Shown here in pieces: positions 446 to 13,136 of a stretch of 23,635 bases of DNA. The stretch is from a virus, in IMG/VR virus record IMGVR_UViG_3300047551_000607, positions 1 through 23,635 of that record. The stretch is one strand, 5' to 3'. The notes under the pieces are model-generated. The model did no database searches and was not told the origin of the DNA. It saw only the letters and a program-made list of their open reading frames with translations. The number at the start of each line of letters is the position of its first letter. The stretch's first letter is position 1. The translations under genes were made by a program, and so were the position numbers.

Positions 446-631
446 TTAATCCTCTTGGGTAAGACGTGTTCGTATCCACTCCACAACACTTGCTTGACCA
501 GACCGATACATGATCTGATTAAGCGAAGTGTCAGGAGTAGGGTTGATGGGTGGATAAAGTTCCTCTAGCTCAGCCAACAACTTTTCAACAGTCAGAAGGT
601 TAAGCGTATTGAGGGAGGTTAGGGTTTGCAT
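446..631 (-). CDS. Small conserved-type protein downstream of RNR
   Basis: A 61-residue acidic protein starting MQTLTSLNTLN. The reading frame is open further upstream to 694, but that part only mirrors the RNR beta gene, so the ATG at 631 is preferred. It still overlaps the end of RNR beta by 32 bases. The C-terminal half contains the segment TSLNQIMYRSGQASVVEWI, a pattern I associate with small hypothetical proteins at this place in cyanopodoviruses. No catalytic motif or membrane segment is visible. It lies between the RNR genes and the gp7.3-like gene and is probably co-transcribed with both. No strong ribosome binding site precedes it, which suggests coupling to the upstream gene. Function unknown. 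Confidence 0.65.
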   Translation of the reverse strand: MQTLTSLNTLNLLTVEKLLAELEELYPPINPTPDTSLNQIMYRSGQASVVEWIRTRLTQED

Positions 632-1316
632 GTTCAAAGAACGCTGGCATCCGTGCTCGCTTGGTATCGGAAAGCTCAGGAGCTTTACCTTCATACATCA
701 GGCGATCACTTGCATCCAGCCAAAATTTTTTGTTCAAATATTTATTGGAGTGTACTCCAGAAAGGGGTTGCATCACCCAATTTATAGTTGCTTTACGCAG
801 TTTATCAAGAGAAGGAGAGACACTAAGCCCCAGCTCACGACAAACAAGGCTATTGGTAGCAACGTGAACTTGTTCATCACGACTAATGTCTGCGCTTACA
901 GTCCTCAGTCCTGCGTCACCATTGAAACGGAAAAAGGGGAGAAGGACGAAGAAAATTGCACGTTCGGCCACCATTGCTTTGAGGACCGTGTGATCTGGAT
1001 GTTCAATCCATGCATCCCTAAGTCGGATGGCTTCGGATTCAGCCTTCTCATCCACGCCCAAAGCGTTGGCGATGTAACCGAGTGCGAGATCATGCTTTTC
1101 CTCGTCCCGGATATTGGATTGTAGTAAACCCACTGACGCTGCTGGAACTTCATTCTTTAGAGCTTCATTGATAAAATCACCTACAGGCAACTCCATGTGA
1201 CGGAGAGCTAAGGCACGATAGATAGTTTCTTCAGCACCTTCGACCAGTTGACCAGCAGTGGTCTGAACAGGAGTCCAGGTGCGCTTACGATTAAGGAGTT
1301 TTTGATAGGGGTTCAT
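600..1316 (-). CDS. Class I ribonucleotide reductase beta subunit, ferritin-like
   Basis: A 238-residue helical diiron-type protein. Metal-ligand candidates fall in the right order: E29 or E30, E72..H75 (DEEKH), E118 (AERA) and E148..H151 (RDEQVH). This is the pattern of class I RNR small subunits, which make the radical used by the alpha subunit to convert ribonucleotides to deoxyribonucleotides. The residue four places after the first His, Tyr in E. coli NrdB, is Leu79 here, so a tyrosyl radical is unlikely and a metal-based radical of the Ic/Id kind is inferred. It is much shorter than NrdB (about 375 residues). The ATG at 1316 overlaps the alpha stop as ATGA; a TTG three codons upstream is less likely. 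Cyanopodovirus homologues are often annotated only as hypothetical. Confidence 0.8.
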   Translation of the reverse strand: MNPYQKLLNRKRTWTPVQTTAGQLVEGAEETIYRALALRHMELPVGDFINEALKNEVPAASVGLLQSNIRDEEKHDLALGYIANALGVDEKAESEAIRLRDAWIEHPDHTVLKAMVAERAIFFVLLPFFRFNGDAGLRTVSADISRDEQVHVATNSLVCRELGLSVSPSLDKLRKATINWVMQPLSGVHSNKYLNKKFWLDASDRLMYEGKAPELSDTKRARMPAFFEHANPNLPQYA

Positions 1317-2716
1317 TCGCCGCAATTACAATCAGGAGCAGGATCATCATCTCTGTCATAGAGAATCGACTCCAGGTAGGAATCCACTTCCGACTCCTCC
1401 AGTGCGGCGTAGGCACTGGTCTTGTCTTGGGTGTCACCCATAACCTGAAGCGAGTAGTAAAGGGAGGTCTGCGGAGATTGCAGCCACTCTTCAATAAACG
1501 CTTCGTCATAGGTGATCACATCAGACCAACTATTGAAGCTGTAACCGTGAAGAAGTCCCGTAGCCTCAAGCATCCTCATGATGCCATCAGCGACTTTCTT
1601 GTAAGCCTCCCAGCCAACTTCAGACGCGATCTCAACAGGACCGTAGTCAAAGCTCTGGACACCAAACGTACCGCTGTCACGGTCCACATGGCGGGCAATA
1701 GGAGGAGCAATTTCAGGGCAGGTGGTGTACCCATCAAGGTCCGTATAGCGGTAGCTACAGGACGCTGTAGGAGCAATAGCAAAAGCTCGCTCCATCCTGT
1801 TCACCTTGGCCACTTGAGCAGCAGCTTGGATGCCAGCGTGCAGCTCATGAGCAAGGATTGATGCTGGGGTTTGTGGGTGTGCTTGCTTGGAGTTGATTGC
1901 TGCCAAGGCTTCCCCAAACTCTTTGTAGGTCACACCGGAGCGACGGAGCAGGTTAGCCAGTCCGAGCACTCCCAGACCGACCTGGCGATCCGTCTTCGGA
2001 GGGAGGTACTCTCCGCTAGCTCCAACGCCTGTTTGTCCGTGAAGGGAGCACAGCTGGGACATTCCAGTGACAAATGCACTTTGAATGTCATTGAGTTCGC
2101 ACTGGCCAAGGTTGACATGTTGCAGTAGACAGGTTCCCCGTGAGGGCAGGTACACCTCCAGGCAAACGTTTCCCCGGATTCGATTTCCATTTCGATCAAC
2201 CTTTGTTTTGTTCAGCCAGATGTCGCCTTGGCGGATCCCTTGAAGGACAGCCTCCTTAACTTCCGATGTCGCCACATTCCACCAATGTGGATTAATGTTG
2301 ACGCAACGCTTAACCCAAGGAAGCTCAGAGCGACTAGCGGTAACAAAATCCAGGATGTCAGGATGATTAAGATCCAGGTGACACACTACAGCACCGTTCT
2401 TATAAACACCACCGCGTCGCAGGATTTCATTCAGTGTGGAGTAGATTTTGGCAAAGGAGACAGGGCCTGAAGCCACAAGGCCTTTGCCATTTTCATCGCC
2501 TTTCGGTCGGAGCTTGGATAGATGGACAGCCACGCCAGCTCCGTAGCGGAGAGCGTGGGAAACAAAACGCCAGGATGCTTCGATTCCATTTTCACCTTCC
2601 ATAGTGTCTTCCACCACAAAGACAGTGCAGGAGACAGGTAGGCGGCTGGTGGGATCGTCAATCCAAGACTGCACTCGCCCAGTACGGGCGATAAGTTCTT
2701 TGGTAGCGGTAGACAT
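1313..2716 (-). CDS. Ribonucleotide reductase alpha (catalytic) subunit, short form
   Basis: A 467-residue protein that provides dNTPs for phage DNA synthesis. Visible RNR features are the first redox Cys (LPVSC, C30), the active-site N-x-C-x-E motif (NVCLEV), the second redox Cys region (GTCLLQHVNLGQC), the phosphate-binding loop APTASCSY, and a C-terminal Cys pair (DCNCGE) that would relay reducing power from thioredoxin or glutaredoxin. It lacks the N-terminal allosteric ATP-cone and is far shorter than E. coli NrdA (761 residues). Cyanopodovirus enzymes like this were first called class II (B12-dependent) and later reassigned to class I because a beta subunit lies next to them. The same arrangement is seen here, with an ATGA overlap. 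It follows mazG by two bases. Confidence 0.9.
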   Translation of the reverse strand: MSTATKELIARTGRVQSWIDDPTSRLPVSCTVFVVEDTMEGENGIEASWRFVSHALRYGAGVAVHLSKLRPKGDENGKGLVASGPVSFAKIYSTLNEILRRGGVYKNGAVVCHLDLNHPDILDFVTASRSELPWVKRCVNINPHWWNVATSEVKEAVLQGIRQGDIWLNKTKVDRNGNRIRGNVCLEVYLPSRGTCLLQHVNLGQCELNDIQSAFVTGMSQLCSLHGQTGVGASGEYLPPKTDRQVGLGVLGLANLLRRSGVTYKEFGEALAAINSKQAHPQTPASILAHELHAGIQAAAQVAKVNRMERAFAIAPTASCSYRYTDLDGYTTCPEIAPPIARHVDRDSGTFGVQSFDYGPVEIASEVGWEAYKKVADGIMRMLEATGLLHGYSFNSWSDVITYDEAFIEEWLQSPQTSLYYSLQVMGDTQDKTSAYAALEESEVDSYLESILYDRDDDPAPDCNCGE

Positions 2717-2718
2717 TA

Positions 2719-3108
2719 TTAAACGAGATCAGTAAGTACAGGTGGTTGGTAGTTAGGCCCTTTCAGTACCTTGCCGTCTTCACGGCGTATCGGCTGACCA
2801 TCTTCTCCAAGCTTGGTCATATTGCTTTTGTGTACACGATCCAATGCTTCATCCAAATCCCAGCCAAGGTTTGCTGCGTATTGGAAGCAGACGTACACAA
2901 GGTCTGCCAGTTCTTTGAGGCACTCTTCAGAGTTGCGCTTGAAATCGATGATTAGCTGCTGCTCGGCTTCCAGAAATTCTTTGAACTCCTCAACGATCAA
3001 AGTCTTCTGCCCAGTCCGTGAAGCTGGATTCGTACTGTCTTTGACCTGGAAACTTTTCCGGAACTCCTTCGCTTGTTCGCTGATAAAGGATTTCGTTTTC
3101 AAGCTCAT
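2719..3108 (-). CDS. mazG: MazG-like nucleotide pyrophosphohydrolase
   Basis: A 129-residue all-alpha NTP pyrophosphatase. The metal-binding signature of the MazG/dUTPase superfamily is present: an EEFKEF helix at about residues 40-45 and ELADLVYV at about 66-73, which gives the E-x-x-E ... E-x-x-D pattern. It continues into NLGWDLDEALDRVHKSNMTKLG, the usual C-terminal helix and Asn/Lys loop. Such enzymes hydrolyse (d)NTPs or related nucleotides. In cyanophages MazG has been proposed to adjust the host nucleotide pool or stress response, but the in vivo substrate is not decided by sequence. The first 39 codons overlap the end of the DUF3310 gene in another frame. It sits directly upstream of the RNR pair, as expected of a nucleotide-metabolism cluster. 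Confidence 0.85.
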   Translation of the reverse strand: MSLKTKSFISEQAKEFRKSFQVKDSTNPASRTGQKTLIVEEFKEFLEAEQQLIIDFKRNSEECLKELADLVYVCFQYAANLGWDLDEALDRVHKSNMTKLGEDGQPIRREDGKVLKGPNYQPPVLTDLV

Positions 3109-3289
3109 TTTGTAGGTAGTGGATTGCTTTGCTTAGATCTTCTATGCGGGACTCTTTGTACCCCGCTCTTGCGATATATTTGACGGCGTTGCCAAGGTGG
3201 AAGTTCAGTCCTTGGTCCCGAATAAAGTCCCAGACTTGTATGGATCCTCGTCGGTAGTAGCTTGGGCCTGTGGTGTTGGAAGGGGCCAT
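2990..3289 (-). CDS. DUF3310 family protein
   Basis: A 99-residue protein. Residues 16-63 match the DUF3310 pattern: a YRRGSIQVWDFI opening, then FHLGNAVKYIARAGYKE, DLSKAIHYLQNEL. This family is widespread in phages, often labelled nucleotide kinase without evidence; its biochemical role is not established. The tail of about 35 residues after the domain, from NEILYQRTSEG to the end, lies largely inside the 119-base overlap with mazG and may be an accessory of that overlap. The ATG at 3289 has no clear ribosome binding site and lies within the preceding gene, which suggests translational coupling. Confidence 0.85.
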   Translation of the reverse strand: MAPSNTTGPSYYRRGSIQVWDFIRDQGLNFHLGNAVKYIARAGYKESRIEDLSKAIHYLQNELENEILYQRTSEGVPEKFPGQRQYESSFTDWAEDFDR

Positions 3290-3498
3290 TTTTTAATCAG
3301 GTTAGAAACGTTGTTACCAAGGACAAAACATTGACGTTGCAACGCAAGGAAGATGGTGATGATGTCTTCCTTGCGAGCTGATGGATCTTGAAGGGCATCT
3401 TCAATCTGCCGCATCTTGAACTCTTGCTCCATTGTCAGCTTGACCACTGGAGGCGGCGGTCCAAAGGATGGGTTGTTGATTGGTGAAATCGTAGTCAT
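3205..3498 (-). CDS. NblA-like protein (candidate phycobilisome degradation adaptor)
   Basis: A 97-residue protein with a Pro-rich N-terminus (PPPPVV), a helical core at residues 21-71 and an acidic/polar tail. The core reads LTMEQEFKMR, then ARKEDIITIF and LQRQ, then NN..NLIKKW. Cyanobacterial NblA proteins (about 60 residues) have the same order: L(S/T)hEQQFxh(R/Q), an ED-hydrophobic turn, an (R)Q helix, an Asn, and an (L/I)(I/L)K/R end. NblA binds phycobiliproteins and hands phycobilisomes to Clp protease. Phage nblA is known in the Microcystis phage Ma-LMM01. The comparison is from memory, so this is a candidate. The ATG at 3498 was chosen because upstream codons only mirror the exonuclease gene. 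It overlaps the exonuclease by 98 bases and the DUF3310 gene by 85. Confidence 0.55.
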   Translation of the reverse strand: MTTISPINNPSFGPPPPVVKLTMEQEFKMRQIEDALQDPSARKEDIITIFLALQRQCFVLGNNVSNLIKKWPLPTPQAQATTDEDPYKSGTLFGTKD

Positions 3499-4168
3499 TT
3501 GCTTGAAGGATCTTTGCGAGTCTTGCGTTAATGAGCGCGACATCTTCCGAAAGATCTTTTTCAGCAAATGCCTTAACGACGGTCTCCCACGTTGCTCCAT
3601 GTTCATCAAGTAAAGCAGCTGCTTTCTTGATACCAAGACCAGGTACGCCGGAGTATCCATCGGTTTGATCGCCCGCCATTGTCTGTATGTAATGCCAGCG
3701 TTCTCCATCTTCTTTTGTAATAGTCACTACTCCATCAGAAAGGTCGTACAGGTCGCCAGGAATCTGCCTCATGTCCTTATCAGGCGAGCAGATGATGTGG
3801 CCCTGTTCCTTGGTGGCATAGATGCCGATGGCATCGTCAGCCTCCAGTTGAGGCATGACAATTACTTGGTAATCTTCTTTGAGTTTATTGATGACCCGGC
3901 GATAGCCGCACGGCTTCTTTCTGTTTCGATGTCCTTTATACGCTGGATCAATAGATTTACGGAAGTTGACAGAATCAGAAAAGAACAGAATAGAATCATC
4001 AAAACATCCAAGGTCTGAGGCGATGGAGAGAAGCTCCCGCTGGACCATGTTGTAGGCTTCGCTGAATCGACTTGTGACAGTGATGACATCATCACCCCAG
4101 TCGATTTCTGATTCGTTGGCTGCACAGCACTTATAGACAATAAAGTCAGCATCAATCAACAGGCTCAT
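3401..4168 (-). CDS. 5'-3' exonuclease, T7 gp6-like
   Basis: A 255-residue FEN/PIN-type nuclease. Acidic metal-site motifs are in order: LLIDADFIVY at the N-terminus, then YKGHRNRKKP (the DNA-contact Arg/Lys segment), QLEADDAIGIYA, CSPDKDMRQI and AGDQTDGYSGVPGLGIKKAAALL, the helix-hairpin-helix region. T7 gp6 removes RNA primers and degrades host DNA to supply nucleotides, and is needed for recombination. The ATG at 4168 overlaps the stop of the 47-residue basic protein as ATGA. The last 30 or so residues after PILWT are shared DNA with the NblA-like gene and look less conserved in character. Confidence 0.92.
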   Translation of the reverse strand: MSLLIDADFIVYKCCAANESEIDWGDDVITVTSRFSEAYNMVQRELLSIASDLGCFDDSILFFSDSVNFRKSIDPAYKGHRNRKKPCGYRRVINKLKEDYQVIVMPQLEADDAIGIYATKEQGHIICSPDKDMRQIPGDLYDLSDGVVTITKEDGERWHYIQTMAGDQTDGYSGVPGLGIKKAAALLDEHGATWETVVKAFAEKDLSEDVALINARLAKILQANDYDFTNQQPILWTAASSGQADNGARVQDAAD

Positions 4169-4308
4169 TTGCCCTGCCCCCGACGAAGCTTCTTCGTTCC
4201 TTTTGGAAGGGATCGAGTTCCGTTGCCTTGTTTGGTGTGCTTGAATTTTGATCGTGACTCAAACTGTTTCTTTGCTAACTGAGTCTTCGATTTGGTTTTG
4301 GGTGGCAT
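4165..4308 (-). CDS. Small basic protein, 47 residues
   Basis: A short gene found by reading the gap between the HNH gene and the exonuclease. It starts MPPKTKSKTQLAKK at 4308 and ends GTKKLRRGQGK, with 17 Lys/Arg and almost no acidic residues. The stop overlaps the exonuclease ATG (ATGA), and the start lies inside the last 50 bases of the HNH gene. The motif ACCTATCCAC lies eight bases upstream of the ATG, as at several other gene starts in this genome. Small basic proteins with a KHTKQGNGTR-like core and a RGQGK end are typical of cyanophages, so it is probably real. A nucleic-acid-binding role is a guess from its charge. Confidence 0.7.
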   Translation of the reverse strand: MPPKTKSKTQLAKKQFESRSKFKHTKQGNGTRSLPKGTKKLRRGQGK

Positions 4309-4768
4309 CTACGTGAGTGGATAGGTAGTCTGTCAGTCTTTCTATTGCCTCAACTAATTGGGATTTGTTCGTCACTATTTTGCCTGCTATAACCTCGTCT
4401 ATTATGTTATTTAGCTGGCATCCAACTGTTATATTCTCAATAGAATGGTCGCAGTTGCCTCCGATTCCATGACGACAAACCTCCCAGGTCTCTAGTGGTC
4501 TGCCTAAGTAACATTCAAGATTAAATCTTCCGGCAACTACCCTAAACCTGTTTTTAATTCCCAGCTGTGTAGCTACTTCTTTGGGTAAGGCAATAGACTG
4601 CTTCGGTCGAAACTTTGCTCCACAATATGTATCTTGGAGCCTCCAGTATTTTGTTTTTACAGGTCTCCTGCTACCGCTGCCTTTTGTCCAGCATGTCCAT
4701 ACGTCTCCGTTGGCTGAGGCTCCTATGTCCTCACAAGAAGGGTGCACATAAATATCAATGGGTATCAC
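4259..4768 (-). CDS. HNH homing endonuclease
   Basis: A protein of about 169 residues from a GTG at 4768; the frame is open back to a TTG at 4852, but that part only mirrors the DNA polymerase gene. The N-terminal part (IPIDIYVHPSCEDIGAS.NGDVWT) resembles the NUMOD-like opening of phage HNH proteins, and the nuclease core is WEVCRHGIGGNCDHSIENITVG followed by CQLNNIIDEV, with the H...N.DH..N......N..D spacing of the HNH_3 type. Such enzymes cut intron-less or intein-less alleles and copy themselves in. It sits immediately after the DNA polymerase gene, a favoured home for these elements, and is absent from T7 at this place. It probably arrived as a mobile gene. Confidence 0.75.
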   Translation of the reverse strand: MIPIDIYVHPSCEDIGASANGDVWTCWTKGSGSRRPVKTKYWRLQDTYCGAKFRPKQSIALPKEVATQLGIKNRFRVVAGRFNLECYLGRPLETWEVCRHGIGGNCDHSIENITVGCQLNNIIDEVIAGKIVTNKSQLVEAIERLTDYLSTHVDATQNQIEDSVSKETV

Positions 4769-6023
4769 TCCATGTATTTCCGTGCCCAGACTCTGCAGCA
4801 ATTGGGATTCGCAAGTTGTAGTAAAGACCCGCCTTAACTGCGGACTGCTCAAGTGTCTCTTTTAATTCTGTTATTAGGTCTTTGCCACATTCATATTGGA
4901 GTTCATCATGGCAAAAAAGTACTTGATAAGCTTTCCATTTATTTCTTTTGACAACCTCATCAGTCATCACCATCCAGCGTTTTGCAATAACTCCGGCTCC
5001 TGACTGAAGCAGGTAGTTCAGAGCCTTATGCCCCGAGTCAACGCTGATACGCCTGTCGTCGATGCTGCGTACAAAACCTCGTTCAGCAGCTTTCTTAGTT
5101 GCATTAACAAGTTTCTCAAGGCCAGGAATGGCATCCATGTAGGCTTGCCTAATTTCCTTGCCTTTCTTTCGTGCCTCGTTCTGGGAAAGGCTTTGGTCGT
5201 AGGACAACCCAATCTTTTGATCTCCAGCACCGTATAGAAATGCGTAAGTAACTGTTTTAACGAGACGACGACTAATGCCTATCTTGTCAGCGTTCTCCTG
5301 GTGAATGTCACCGTTGAGAAGAACATCTGCGTAGCGGCCTCCATCGTATCTAGCCAGATAATGGGCAAGCAGTCGCAGTTCAATCCCTGCGAGGTCAGCA
5401 CCAACCATGCACATGTCAGGGCTAGCGCGGAATAGCTTTCTAAAATCAGCGTCACTGGGCACCTGGGCAAGGTTGGGTTTCCTATGTGCACACCGATGGG
5501 TGTTTGTAGCCACTGAGCAGTGGTGATGAATCCTGCTGTCTCTTACTAACTTCAGCCAGGCATTAATGCCTTCCGACAACATGCCAAGCTGTTTCGTTAG
5601 CTCCAGACAACGGAAGAACTGAAGAGCAATCGGCGTACCAATGTCTTTCAGGACTACCTCATCAATTGTGGCTTTACCTTTATCAGTGAACTGGGTTGGC
5701 TTCCACTTGTAGTGGGTCTCCATTACCCAGGCAATGTGATCCCTGGATGTAGGATTGAACTCCTTTAGTCGAGAGAAAGTAGCTCCTTCGACATAGCCGC
5801 TGGTTTTGTTAGCTCGTTTAGGAGTGAACTCCGATCCCTTAACGAGAGGGTGCCTGTCTCGTAGTAACTCAGTAAGACCTTCAAGTTCTTGTCTGAGAGT
5901 CGATTCAAGTTTCCATGCAGCAGGCTCATCAAAGTACCATCCATGTATTTCTTGATCAGTAAGAATTTGAGCAACTCTGTGCTCTAGCGCAACCCACTCA
6001 GGTAGGGGTGGAAGTGTTTGCAT
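4755..6023 (-). CDS. DNA polymerase, polymerase domain (T7 gp5 C-terminal part)
   Basis: A 422-residue polymerase half of a family A enzyme. Motif A is MVGADLAGIELRLLAHY, motif B is RRLVKTVTYAFLYGAG and motif C is VLFCHDELQYE, so both catalytic aspartates and the O-helix Lys and Tyr are present. The end (HGNTWSDTH) matches the way T7 gp5 ends (NWAICH). Its beginning, LPEWVALEHRVAQILTDQEIHGW, corresponds to a point in the middle of T7 gp5, just after the exonuclease domain. The exonuclease part is a separate overlapping frame upstream. The ATG at 6023 has no ribosome binding site, so it may be made by -1 frameshifting, by reinitiation, or the split may be a sequence error. The thioredoxin-binding insertion of T7 is not evident. 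Confidence 0.9.
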   Translation of the reverse strand: MQTLPPLPEWVALEHRVAQILTDQEIHGWYFDEPAAWKLESTLRQELEGLTELLRDRHPLVKGSEFTPKRANKTSGYVEGATFSRLKEFNPTSRDHIAWVMETHYKWKPTQFTDKGKATIDEVVLKDIGTPIALQFFRCLELTKQLGMLSEGINAWLKLVRDSRIHHHCSVATNTHRCAHRKPNLAQVPSDADFRKLFRASPDMCMVGADLAGIELRLLAHYLARYDGGRYADVLLNGDIHQENADKIGISRRLVKTVTYAFLYGAGDQKIGLSYDQSLSQNEARKKGKEIRQAYMDAIPGLEKLVNATKKAAERGFVRSIDDRRISVDSGHKALNYLLQSGAGVIAKRWMVMTDEVVKRNKWKAYQVLFCHDELQYECGKDLITELKETLEQSAVKAGLYYNLRIPIAAESGHGNTWSDTH

Positions 6024-6547
6024 AGTTTGTGTGTTACAACAACGTCTTGGACGCAGTAATCCTGCATCTCTTGTGACCACTCTTTCCAATCAGCTGTCTT
6101 GGAAAAGTTTCCCTTGTACTCACCCAGCCGGTAACCATAGGCTTCTAAAGAATGACGGCCATACAGTTGAGCAGGCATGTGCTTCCACGACCTGTTGGTA
6201 TCAATCTTCAGAATGTCTGTGTGGTACAGCCTGGACAGCACTAAAGTGTCAACAACCAAACCAGCAGGAGAAAACCAAGGAAATAGTTTATGAATAACAG
6301 GGCAATCGTAACCAATAATATTGTGGCCAATAATGCACGATGCGTCTTCAAGACGTTCAATGCCCCGAATAATAGGTTCCTCAGTCCCTTCGTCGTTGTA
6401 GACCAGCATTTGTTCCGCCTGGATATCAAAGATAGCCAAACAGTGGATACGGGTAACATCATTTAGAAACCCGTCTGTTTCAAGATCGAAGACGAGTGTC
6501 GGCCCATCCCCGATAGGTCTTGTCAACGAACTGGGCTCTAGTGACAT
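5984..6547 (-). CDS. DNA polymerase, 3'-5' exonuclease domain (T7 gp5 N-terminal part)
   Basis: A 187-residue proofreading domain. Exo I is LVFDLETDGF (the D and E of DxE), Exo II is IIGHNIIGYDCPVI, and Exo III is YCVQDVVVTHKL. These are the three metal-binding motifs of DEDD exonucleases. The reading frame stops at 5984, shortly after Exo III, where T7 gp5 would continue into the polymerase domain; the polymerase frame is one base back and overlaps by 40 bases. A run of four C (minus strand, 6008-6005) lies at the point where the two frames would have to join. If separate, the two subunits would have to associate. The gene lies 32 bases after the primase-helicase gene. Confidence 0.88.
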   Translation of the reverse strand: MSLEPSSLTRPIGDGPTLVFDLETDGFLNDVTRIHCLAIFDIQAEQMLVYNDEGTEEPIIRGIERLEDASCIIGHNIIGYDCPVIHKLFPWFSPAGLVVDTLVLSRLYHTDILKIDTNRSWKHMPAQLYGRHSLEAYGYRLGEYKGNFSKTADWKEWSQEMQDYCVQDVVVTHKLCKHFHPYLSGLR

Positions 6548-11848: not shown

Positions 11849-12790
11849 CTAGATACGCACGTCGCCTTGCGTGCTGACCCCACCTGTGTTATGGACGTAC
11901 CGCTCGGTCATGGCCACTGTGGAGTGACCCATGGCGAACTTAACATCCATGATTGGAGAGCCTGCCGCGATGCGCCAGGTGCCGTAGGTGTGGCGAAACG
12001 TGTGGAACACATGGGCATCGGTGATGCCATCCACGCGGGTCTTGACCACAGACTTCACCGGATTAAATGCCCGGTTGATCTGTTGTCTGTTGATCCAGTC
12101 CTCTCCAAAGATCAAATCGTTTGCGTCCTTGTGGAAGCACAAACGCTCGGCAAGTTCATGAATCCGCTCCGGTAATTGAACGGTTCGGTAGTTGCCCGTC
12201 TTGGTGATGGAGTCCTTCGTACCACCAACGTGGATCAAAGGTACGTTGAGTTTGTAGTCAAAGTCCCGGCGCTTTAGCTTGCGGAGTTCTTGTTGACGCA
12301 GCCCTGTGTAGGCCGCAAACAACATCAAATCCGCCAACTTGTGACGCTCGGTCTCCTTGGCGTACCCACACAACTGCTCGACATGCTCTTTGGTGTACCA
12401 CTCGGTACGACCCATCGTTTCTGCCTTGCGTGGGATGCGTGGCATCTTGGCGAGCATGTCGTGATCCAAGCACTCCTTAAAGGTGGTGCTTAAGAATGAA
12501 CAGAACTTGTTGCAGCTGGAATCACTCCAGTTGTAATGGTCCTGCATCTCGTTGATGATTTGCTTGACGTTGAAGTCGTCAGCAATGTACGCAATCGGAA
12601 TCGCGTCGCTCTCACAAAACTTCTCCAGCTGTTGCATGAAGCGTCTTGCGTTGTGCCCTTGACTGTTCTTCTCTCGATTGAGAGACCACTTGTCATGGGT
12701 TGAAAGAGCAAATTGGAAGGCGTGCTGAAAGGTCTTGATGGTGGACTTTTCAGGCTTGCGCTCCATTAATTTCTCAAGTCTTGTCGCCAT
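11849..12790 (-). CDS. int: Tyrosine recombinase (phage integrase)
   Basis: A 313-residue protein from the ATG at 12790; a second ATG at 12766 with GAG six bases before it is also possible. The N-terminal half is a SAM-like core-binding domain. The catalytic domain has the first Arg in YTGLRQQELRKL, a Lys in GGTKDSITKTGNYRTVQL, HTFRHTYGTW (H-x-x-R), the second His in MGHSTVAMTERY and the nucleophilic Tyr in TERYVHNTG. All six expected active-site residues are present, so it should be active. The gene overlaps the MarR-like gene by 17 bases and is followed by a tRNA-Leu fragment. Together they point to a capacity for site-specific integration, though lysogeny is rarely shown for marine cyanopodoviruses. 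Confidence 0.93.
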   Translation of the reverse strand: MATRLEKLMERKPEKSTIKTFQHAFQFALSTHDKWSLNREKNSQGHNARRFMQQLEKFCESDAIPIAYIADDFNVKQIINEMQDHYNWSDSSCNKFCSFLSTTFKECLDHDMLAKMPRIPRKAETMGRTEWYTKEHVEQLCGYAKETERHKLADLMLFAAYTGLRQQELRKLKRRDFDYKLNVPLIHVGGTKDSITKTGNYRTVQLPERIHELAERLCFHKDANDLIFGEDWINRQQINRAFNPVKSVVKTRVDGITDAHVFHTFRHTYGTWRIAAGSPIMDVKFAMGHSTVAMTERYVHNTGGVSTQGDVRI

Positions 12791-13136
12791 ACAGCAATTG
12801 GGTGATGTGGTGAACAAGCTGCTCCCCTTTTGGGGTCAGTTTGAGAATCGTTCGGCGTCTGTTGGTGGGATCTTCCTCCTTGGTGATCAGATTGAGGCCA
12901 GGCTTGCGAAGCCTGTGGAAACGGGAGAGCCAGTCCGTGTTGCGGCTGCCACTGCTGGTGGTGAAGTTCAAGTCCTGCTCCATCGCCGGTTTGTGGCACT
13001 CATTGTGGGAAGCCACGTATAAAAAAGTGGCTACCACTTGAGCTGGCATCTCTCGATCAAGGACGCGAATGGCTTCGACGACCTTGAGCAGTCGCTCGAT
13101 CTGCGGATTGGTGCGCTGTCTTCTGAGTGGATCCAT
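12774..13136 (-). CDS. MarR-like winged-helix regulator
   Basis: A 120-residue protein. The central part follows the MarR plan: a helix REMPAQVVATFLYVASH, a recognition-helix region with SSGSRNTDWLSRFHRL, and the wing LITKEEDPTNRRRTILKLTPKGEQLVHHI, in which D..NRRR..LKLT.KG is highly typical. MarR proteins bind palindromic operators as dimers and often repress their own or neighbouring genes. It is encoded directly upstream of, and overlapping, the integrase gene, so control of integrase or of the early region is a fair inference. The first 16 codons or so are basic and lie in the overlap with the preceding small frame. No effector-binding residues can be judged. Confidence 0.8.
   Translation of the reverse strand: MDPLRRQRTNPQIERLLKVVEAIRVLDREMPAQVVATFLYVASHNECHKPAMEQDLNFTTSSGSRNTDWLSRFHRLRKPGLNLITKEEDPTNRRRTILKLTPKGEQLVHHITQLLYGDKT

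Follow-up and report, generated by a model that had tools for sequence, protein, structure and literature searches.

The minus-strand gene at positions 3205-3498 of the window, by which we mean the whole stretch of DNA analysed (a virus record of 23.6 kb), encodes, with a probability of about 90%, a phage NblA, i.e., a small proteolysis adaptor of phycobilisome breakdown. The original prediction had proposed this identification and it is supported by our analysis, whereas phycobiliprotein binding, ClpC recruitment, and bleaching are activities that the protein may be expected to have by analogy with its family.

Genomic context of the nblA-like gene

The window belongs to a virus that infects Synechococcus of marine or estuarine waters and has the T7-like cyanophages S-CBP1, S-CBP3, and S-CBP4 as kin. 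Its gene set comprises a primase/helicase, a split DNA polymerase, an exonuclease, nblA, a DUF3310 protein, MazG, ribonucleotide reductase (RNR), and ThyX, and it follows the gene order of T7-like cyanophages (Autographiviridae), i.e., RNAP, SSB, endonuclease, primase/helicase, split polymerase, exonuclease, and RNR. The exonuclease-nblA-(DUF3310/MazG)-RNR order was also found in S-TIP37, P-SSP7, S-CBP3, NATL1A-7, and P-SSP2 and, by DNA similarity, in many further phages. The position of nblA in the replication/nucleotide module is fixed across T7-like cyanophages. The T7-like cyanophage setting that had been proposed is therefore borne out by relatives, gene content, and synteny alike.

The open reading frame has exactly the limits and the 97 residues originally claimed for it, to which we can add the strand, as none had been given. 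It starts with the ATG at position 3498 and overlaps both neighbours: its first 98 nt (3401-3498) lie, in a different frame, within the 3' end of the exonuclease gene, and the 85 nt encoding its tail (3205-3289) coincide with the start of the DUF3310 gene, so that only 111 nt of nblA do not overlap. A strong Shine-Dalgarno sequence is absent before the ORF. Coordinates are collected in Table 1.

Table 1. Location of nblA and of other features of the window.
Feature	Position	Strand	Basis
nblA-like CDS, 97 aa	3205..3498	-	PHROG 27006; Pfam PF04485 over residues 20-70
NblA domain, helix-loop-helix core, residues 20-70	3289..3441	-	Pfam placement; AlphaFold2
T7-like gene 6 5'-3' exonuclease, upstream of nblA	3401..4168	-	Pfam PF02739; ORF coordinates
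DUF3310 protein, downstream of nblA; PHROGs 'nucleotide kinase'-like	2990..3289	-	Pfam PF11753; PHROGs
MazG-like nucleotide pyrophosphohydrolase	2719..3108	-	PF01503 and PF12643
Ribonucleotide reductase large subunit	1313..2716	-	PF02867
Ribonucleotide reductase beta-like subunit	600..1292	-	phrog_6799, E 2.1e-132
Split DNA polymerase, exonuclease part and polymerase part	5984..6547 and 4755..6089	-	
197-aa ORF between DNA polymerase and exonuclease	4259..4852	-	
Tyrosine integrase adjoining MarR-like regulator	11849..13136	-	

Three other features of the window deserve mention. The two parts of the DNA polymerase are encoded in overlapping frames, the same arrangement as annotated in S-TIP37 and P-SSP7. 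The 197-aa ORF located between the DNA polymerase and the exonuclease had no match in Pfam, PHROGs, NCBIfam, or the deposited phage genomes; its cysteine/histidine pattern, CRHGIGGNCDHSIENITVGCQLNN, resembles by eye that of a homing HNH endonuclease. The tyrosine integrase adjoining a MarR-like regulator is like that of other T7-like cyanophages.

Membership of the NblA family

The Pfam scan of the window protein returned a single family, NblA (PF04485), with residues 20-70 aligned to positions 1-49 of the 50 in the profile (E = 4.7e-5). The score of 24.2 bits is 0.8 bit short of the curated cut-off of 25, and a genome-level search credited the protein, with its neighbours in frame, with 25.3 bits; no NblA equivalog was matched in NCBIfam. 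The family as a whole scores better, since PF04485 matches 35 of its 37 aligned phage members (best E = 1.2e-7). The ortholog of S-TIP37, which carries no GenBank annotation, reaches 27.8 bits, over the curated threshold, and is the sole PF04485 match in that 45-kb genome. The window protein lies on the Synechococcus-phage side of the family, the side that scores as NblA.

The link to cyanobacterial NblA was also observed with other searches. The phage alignment matched cyanobacterial NblA in hhalign with E = 1.8e-9 and 42% identity over 50 columns, and BLASTP of the window protein against the NblA of Roseofilum gave 44% over 50 aa. When bacterial genomes were scanned with the phage alignment, NblA genes on the chromosomes of Roseofilum, UBA2566, and a Pleurocapsales strain were retrieved; their products score 72-77 bits in Pfam. 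Against a profile of these three proteins, the window protein obtained 30.3 bits and its composition-preserving shuffles at most 6.5 bits (5000 copies, 3633 of which yielded a score). In the PDB, NblA matches were weak with a single sequence (E 0.11) and improved with a profile, which placed the NblA of PCC 7942 (3cs5) at the top (E 0.0038) and three more solved NblA structures among its five hits. The profile search that the original prediction had proposed as a check thus does recover NblA, from the single protein (Pfam), from its family, and with hhalign.

Relatives of the gene are abundant in phages. With tblastn we retrieved 37 deposited phage records at E <= 1, all of them cyanophages or uncultured marine phages, and the scan of IMG/VR yielded at least 154 stretches encoding relatives, including copies 87-100% identical to the window protein. 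A search of plasmids for the gene gave no match. The window protein falls in PHROG 27006 (E 3.8e-35), labelled 'unknown function', which can be named NblA-like. Across T7-like cyanophages the orthologs are usually unannotated or 'hypothetical', and annotation often overlooks the gene because both neighbours overlap it.

Two irregular cases were noticed. The cyanophage gene appears on bacterial MAG contigs labelled Gammaproteobacteria, Flavobacteriales, and TMED88 (L086-L089), probably owing to contamination of the bins by phage contigs. In S-RIP1 (L096:3379-3975) the ortholog is spread over two frames, with an HNH endonuclease gene inserted at its 3' end; it is a disrupted gene or a sequencing error.

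Finally, diverged syntenic orthologs are found in Prochlorococcus phages and in contigs binned as Prochlorococcus (L082:13741-14052, L085:2983-3294, L090:2983-3285, and NATL1A-7). The Prochlorococcus-phage orthologs, including that of P-SSP7, had no match to Pfam NblA. Against the cyanobacterial NblA profile the P-SSP7 protein gave a weak score of 10.6 bits, which exceeds that of every shuffle of the window protein. The P-SSP7 and L085 orthologs show purifying selection relative to each other (dN 0.09, dS 0.62).

Predicted structure

AlphaFold2, run with the phage alignment, predicted two helices (residues 23-37 and 43-69) with a core pLDDT of about 90 and low-confidence ends (residues 1-8 and 81-97). 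A cyanobacterial NblA predicted likewise as a control has its helices at residues 9-23 and 27-54. With E24 aligned to E10, the modelled helix limits of the two proteins match, and the turn of the phage protein is two residues longer. The comparison with the two-helix hairpin of NblA that had been suggested together with the identification is hence favourable at the level of the model. Foldseek against the PDB returned no NblA match for the window model, nor for the genuine cyanobacterial control, so this test is powerless for a two-helix protein; against BFVD, the window model had no useful match.

Conserved motifs, extensions, and selection

The order of landmarks claimed for NblA is present in the protein: LTMEQEFKMR (21-30), KED (43-45), QRQ (54-56), N62, and LIKK (67-70). 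These landmarks represent more than chance, because no shuffle came close to the score of the window protein against the cyanobacterial profile. E24, Q25, Q54, Q56, N62, L67, and W71 are invariant among the 37 aligned members, and LTxEQxFK ranks among the best-conserved stretches of the phage family. Judged from its sequence, the N-terminal ClpC-binding motif appears to be kept (LTMEQEFKM versus LTLEQQFKM). The canonical phycobiliprotein-binding sequence near the C terminus, KDNIVKHLMK, seems to be kept only in part, as LGNNVSNLIKK: N62, L67, and K69 align with N46, L51, and K53 of the Roseofilum NblA, but the residues around them differ.

The protein had also been described as carrying a Pro-rich extension and an acidic tail beyond the usual size of NblA. 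The Pro-rich segment exists, but it is in part typical of the family, since the GPPPP lead-in is conserved among the phages (G13, P15, and P17 at >=90%) and PCC 7942 NblA has PPLP at this place; the segment overlaps the exonuclease frame as well. The acidic tail (about residues 70-97) is likewise present, but we rejected it as a functional extension: past W71 both length and sequence vary, the S-TIP37 (L081) and L031 orthologs stop soon after W71, the tail is missing from many orthologs, and it overlaps the DUF3310 gene in a region that evolves nearly free of constraint. The median pairwise dN/dS was 0.145 in the non-overlapping region, 0.25 where nblA overlaps the exonuclease gene, and 0.77 where it overlaps the DUF3310 gene; at synonymous sites, saturation affects many core pairs, and the second frame confounds the values for the overlaps. 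The unique core of nblA is under purifying selection, with a dN/dS of about 0.15.

Proposed function and alternative explanations

In NblA, the binding site for ClpC lies close to the N terminus and that for phycobiliproteins close to the C terminus (PMC4103541; PMC7966870). By analogy, a dimer of the phage protein would dock on phycobiliproteins via its C-terminal part, and its conserved LTxEQxFK region would dock on the ClpC of the host. The antenna would be dismantled or uncoupled during infection, and phage replication could benefit from the amino acids freed and from the lowered light capture. The gene may be co-expressed with the adjoining nucleotide-scavenging genes (DUF3310, MazG, and ribonucleotide reductase). 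With an N-terminal motif that is retained and a C-terminal one that is altered in part, the protein would, reasoning from the family, most likely serve to dismantle or uncouple the phycobilisomes of infected Synechococcus.

The changed C-terminal motif leaves some room for a true NblA homolog that acts without ClpC-driven proteolysis; it would bind the phycobilisome and thereby uncouple or loosen it, with less energy transfer and no wholesale degradation. The C-terminal binding face unlike that of cyanobacterial NblA, next to a conserved N-terminal motif, would fit such an activity, and so would the proposal of Dines et al., as it is outlined in PMC4103541, that NblA acts by structural mimicry of phycobiliproteins and not purely as an adaptor. 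We consider this possible, if on balance unlikely, since the presence of LTxEQxFK among the best-conserved stretches argues that the ClpC-side motif is still in use, and since S. elongatus lost phycobilin upon expression of nblA genes taken from marine viral metagenomes, according to the account of Nadel 2019 in PMC9602691. A concern of another kind is that the ORF might be spurious, or might arise from reading the exonuclease/DUF3310 junction out of frame, given its overlaps on both sides, the absence of a strong Shine-Dalgarno sequence, and the many records in which it is unannotated. The chance of this is negligible, as the conservation data (the IMG/VR relatives and the dN/dS of the unique 111 nt) refute it and the NblA profile matches also speak against it.

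Prochlorococcus hosts are not known to have phycobilisomes. The copies in their phages would fit a descendant of NblA with a new purpose, e.g., delivering some other host protein to ClpC as an adaptor, and such a change would also agree with the diverged orthologs at the same position in P-SSP7, P-SSP3, and NATL1A-7, with the selection acting on P-SSP7 and its relative L085, and with the loss of the Pfam NblA score in these orthologs. For the window protein this is improbable, because it sits on the side of the family that scores as NblA; moreover, the Prochlorococcus cases could also result from phages that infect a broad range of hosts or have recently switched host, and the record of P-SSP2 lists a Synechococcus host. 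There is likewise a slim chance that divergence in this phage lineage has given NblA an adaptor role reaching beyond phycobilisomes, in which case the Synechococcus-phage form might share the extra target. If true, a non-phycobilisome adaptor would explain why a copy under selection is found in the same place in P-SSP7, P-SSP3, and NATL1A-7. What is unusual is that a diverged copy is retained by phages of Prochlorococcus, although these hosts are not known to have phycobilisomes, and the persistence of the gene in these phages is the most interesting follow-up and directly testable.

Comparison with known NblA proteins

Viral NblA in cyanopodoviruses is already known, and the window gene is a further carrier. 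As reported in PMC9602691, the predictions of Nadel et al. 2019 placed nblA in the myovirus S-TIM5 as well as in 14 isolates of cyanopodoviruses. We infer from the sequence matches that the window gene belongs to this cyanopodovirus cluster, because the PF04485 matches detected in 8 of the 12 T7-like genomes searched, never more than one per genome, fall on the window-gene family. A later work (Nadel et al. 2025, Nature 648:434) is presented as an experimental study of viral NblA in oceanic cyanobacteria, and a 2026 review cites it for an effect of up to 5% on global light capture. The significance of phage NblA is that it lowers the antenna capacity of abundant ocean photosynthesisers.

The proteins of the T7-like cyanophages S-TIP37, S-CBP1/3/4, S-RIP2, S-SBP1, and S-B28 (PHROG 27006) have the same domain, with 51-64% identity, and their genes occupy the same slot, with the gene 6 exonuclease on one side and the MazG/RNR genes on the other; nothing of substance distinguishes them from the window protein except the length of the C-terminal tail. 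With the cyanobacterial NblA proteins (PF04485; PCC 7942 3CS5, 1OJH, and Roseofilum) the window protein shares LTxEQxFK, matching helix limits, and 42-44% identity over the 50-aa core, but it differs from them in its length (97 aa versus about 60), the conserved GPPPP lead-in, the longer turn, the changed C-terminal motif with an invariant W at its end, and the non-conserved tail. The NblA proteins of the freshwater cyanophages Ma-LMM01, MaMV-DC, and PaV-LD are also phage-borne, with expression during infection reported for them (PMC4103541, PMC9602691), but these viruses are of other phage types, not T7-like, and in the published tree the marine and estuarine phage NblA sequences are distant from the freshwater ones (PMC9602691).
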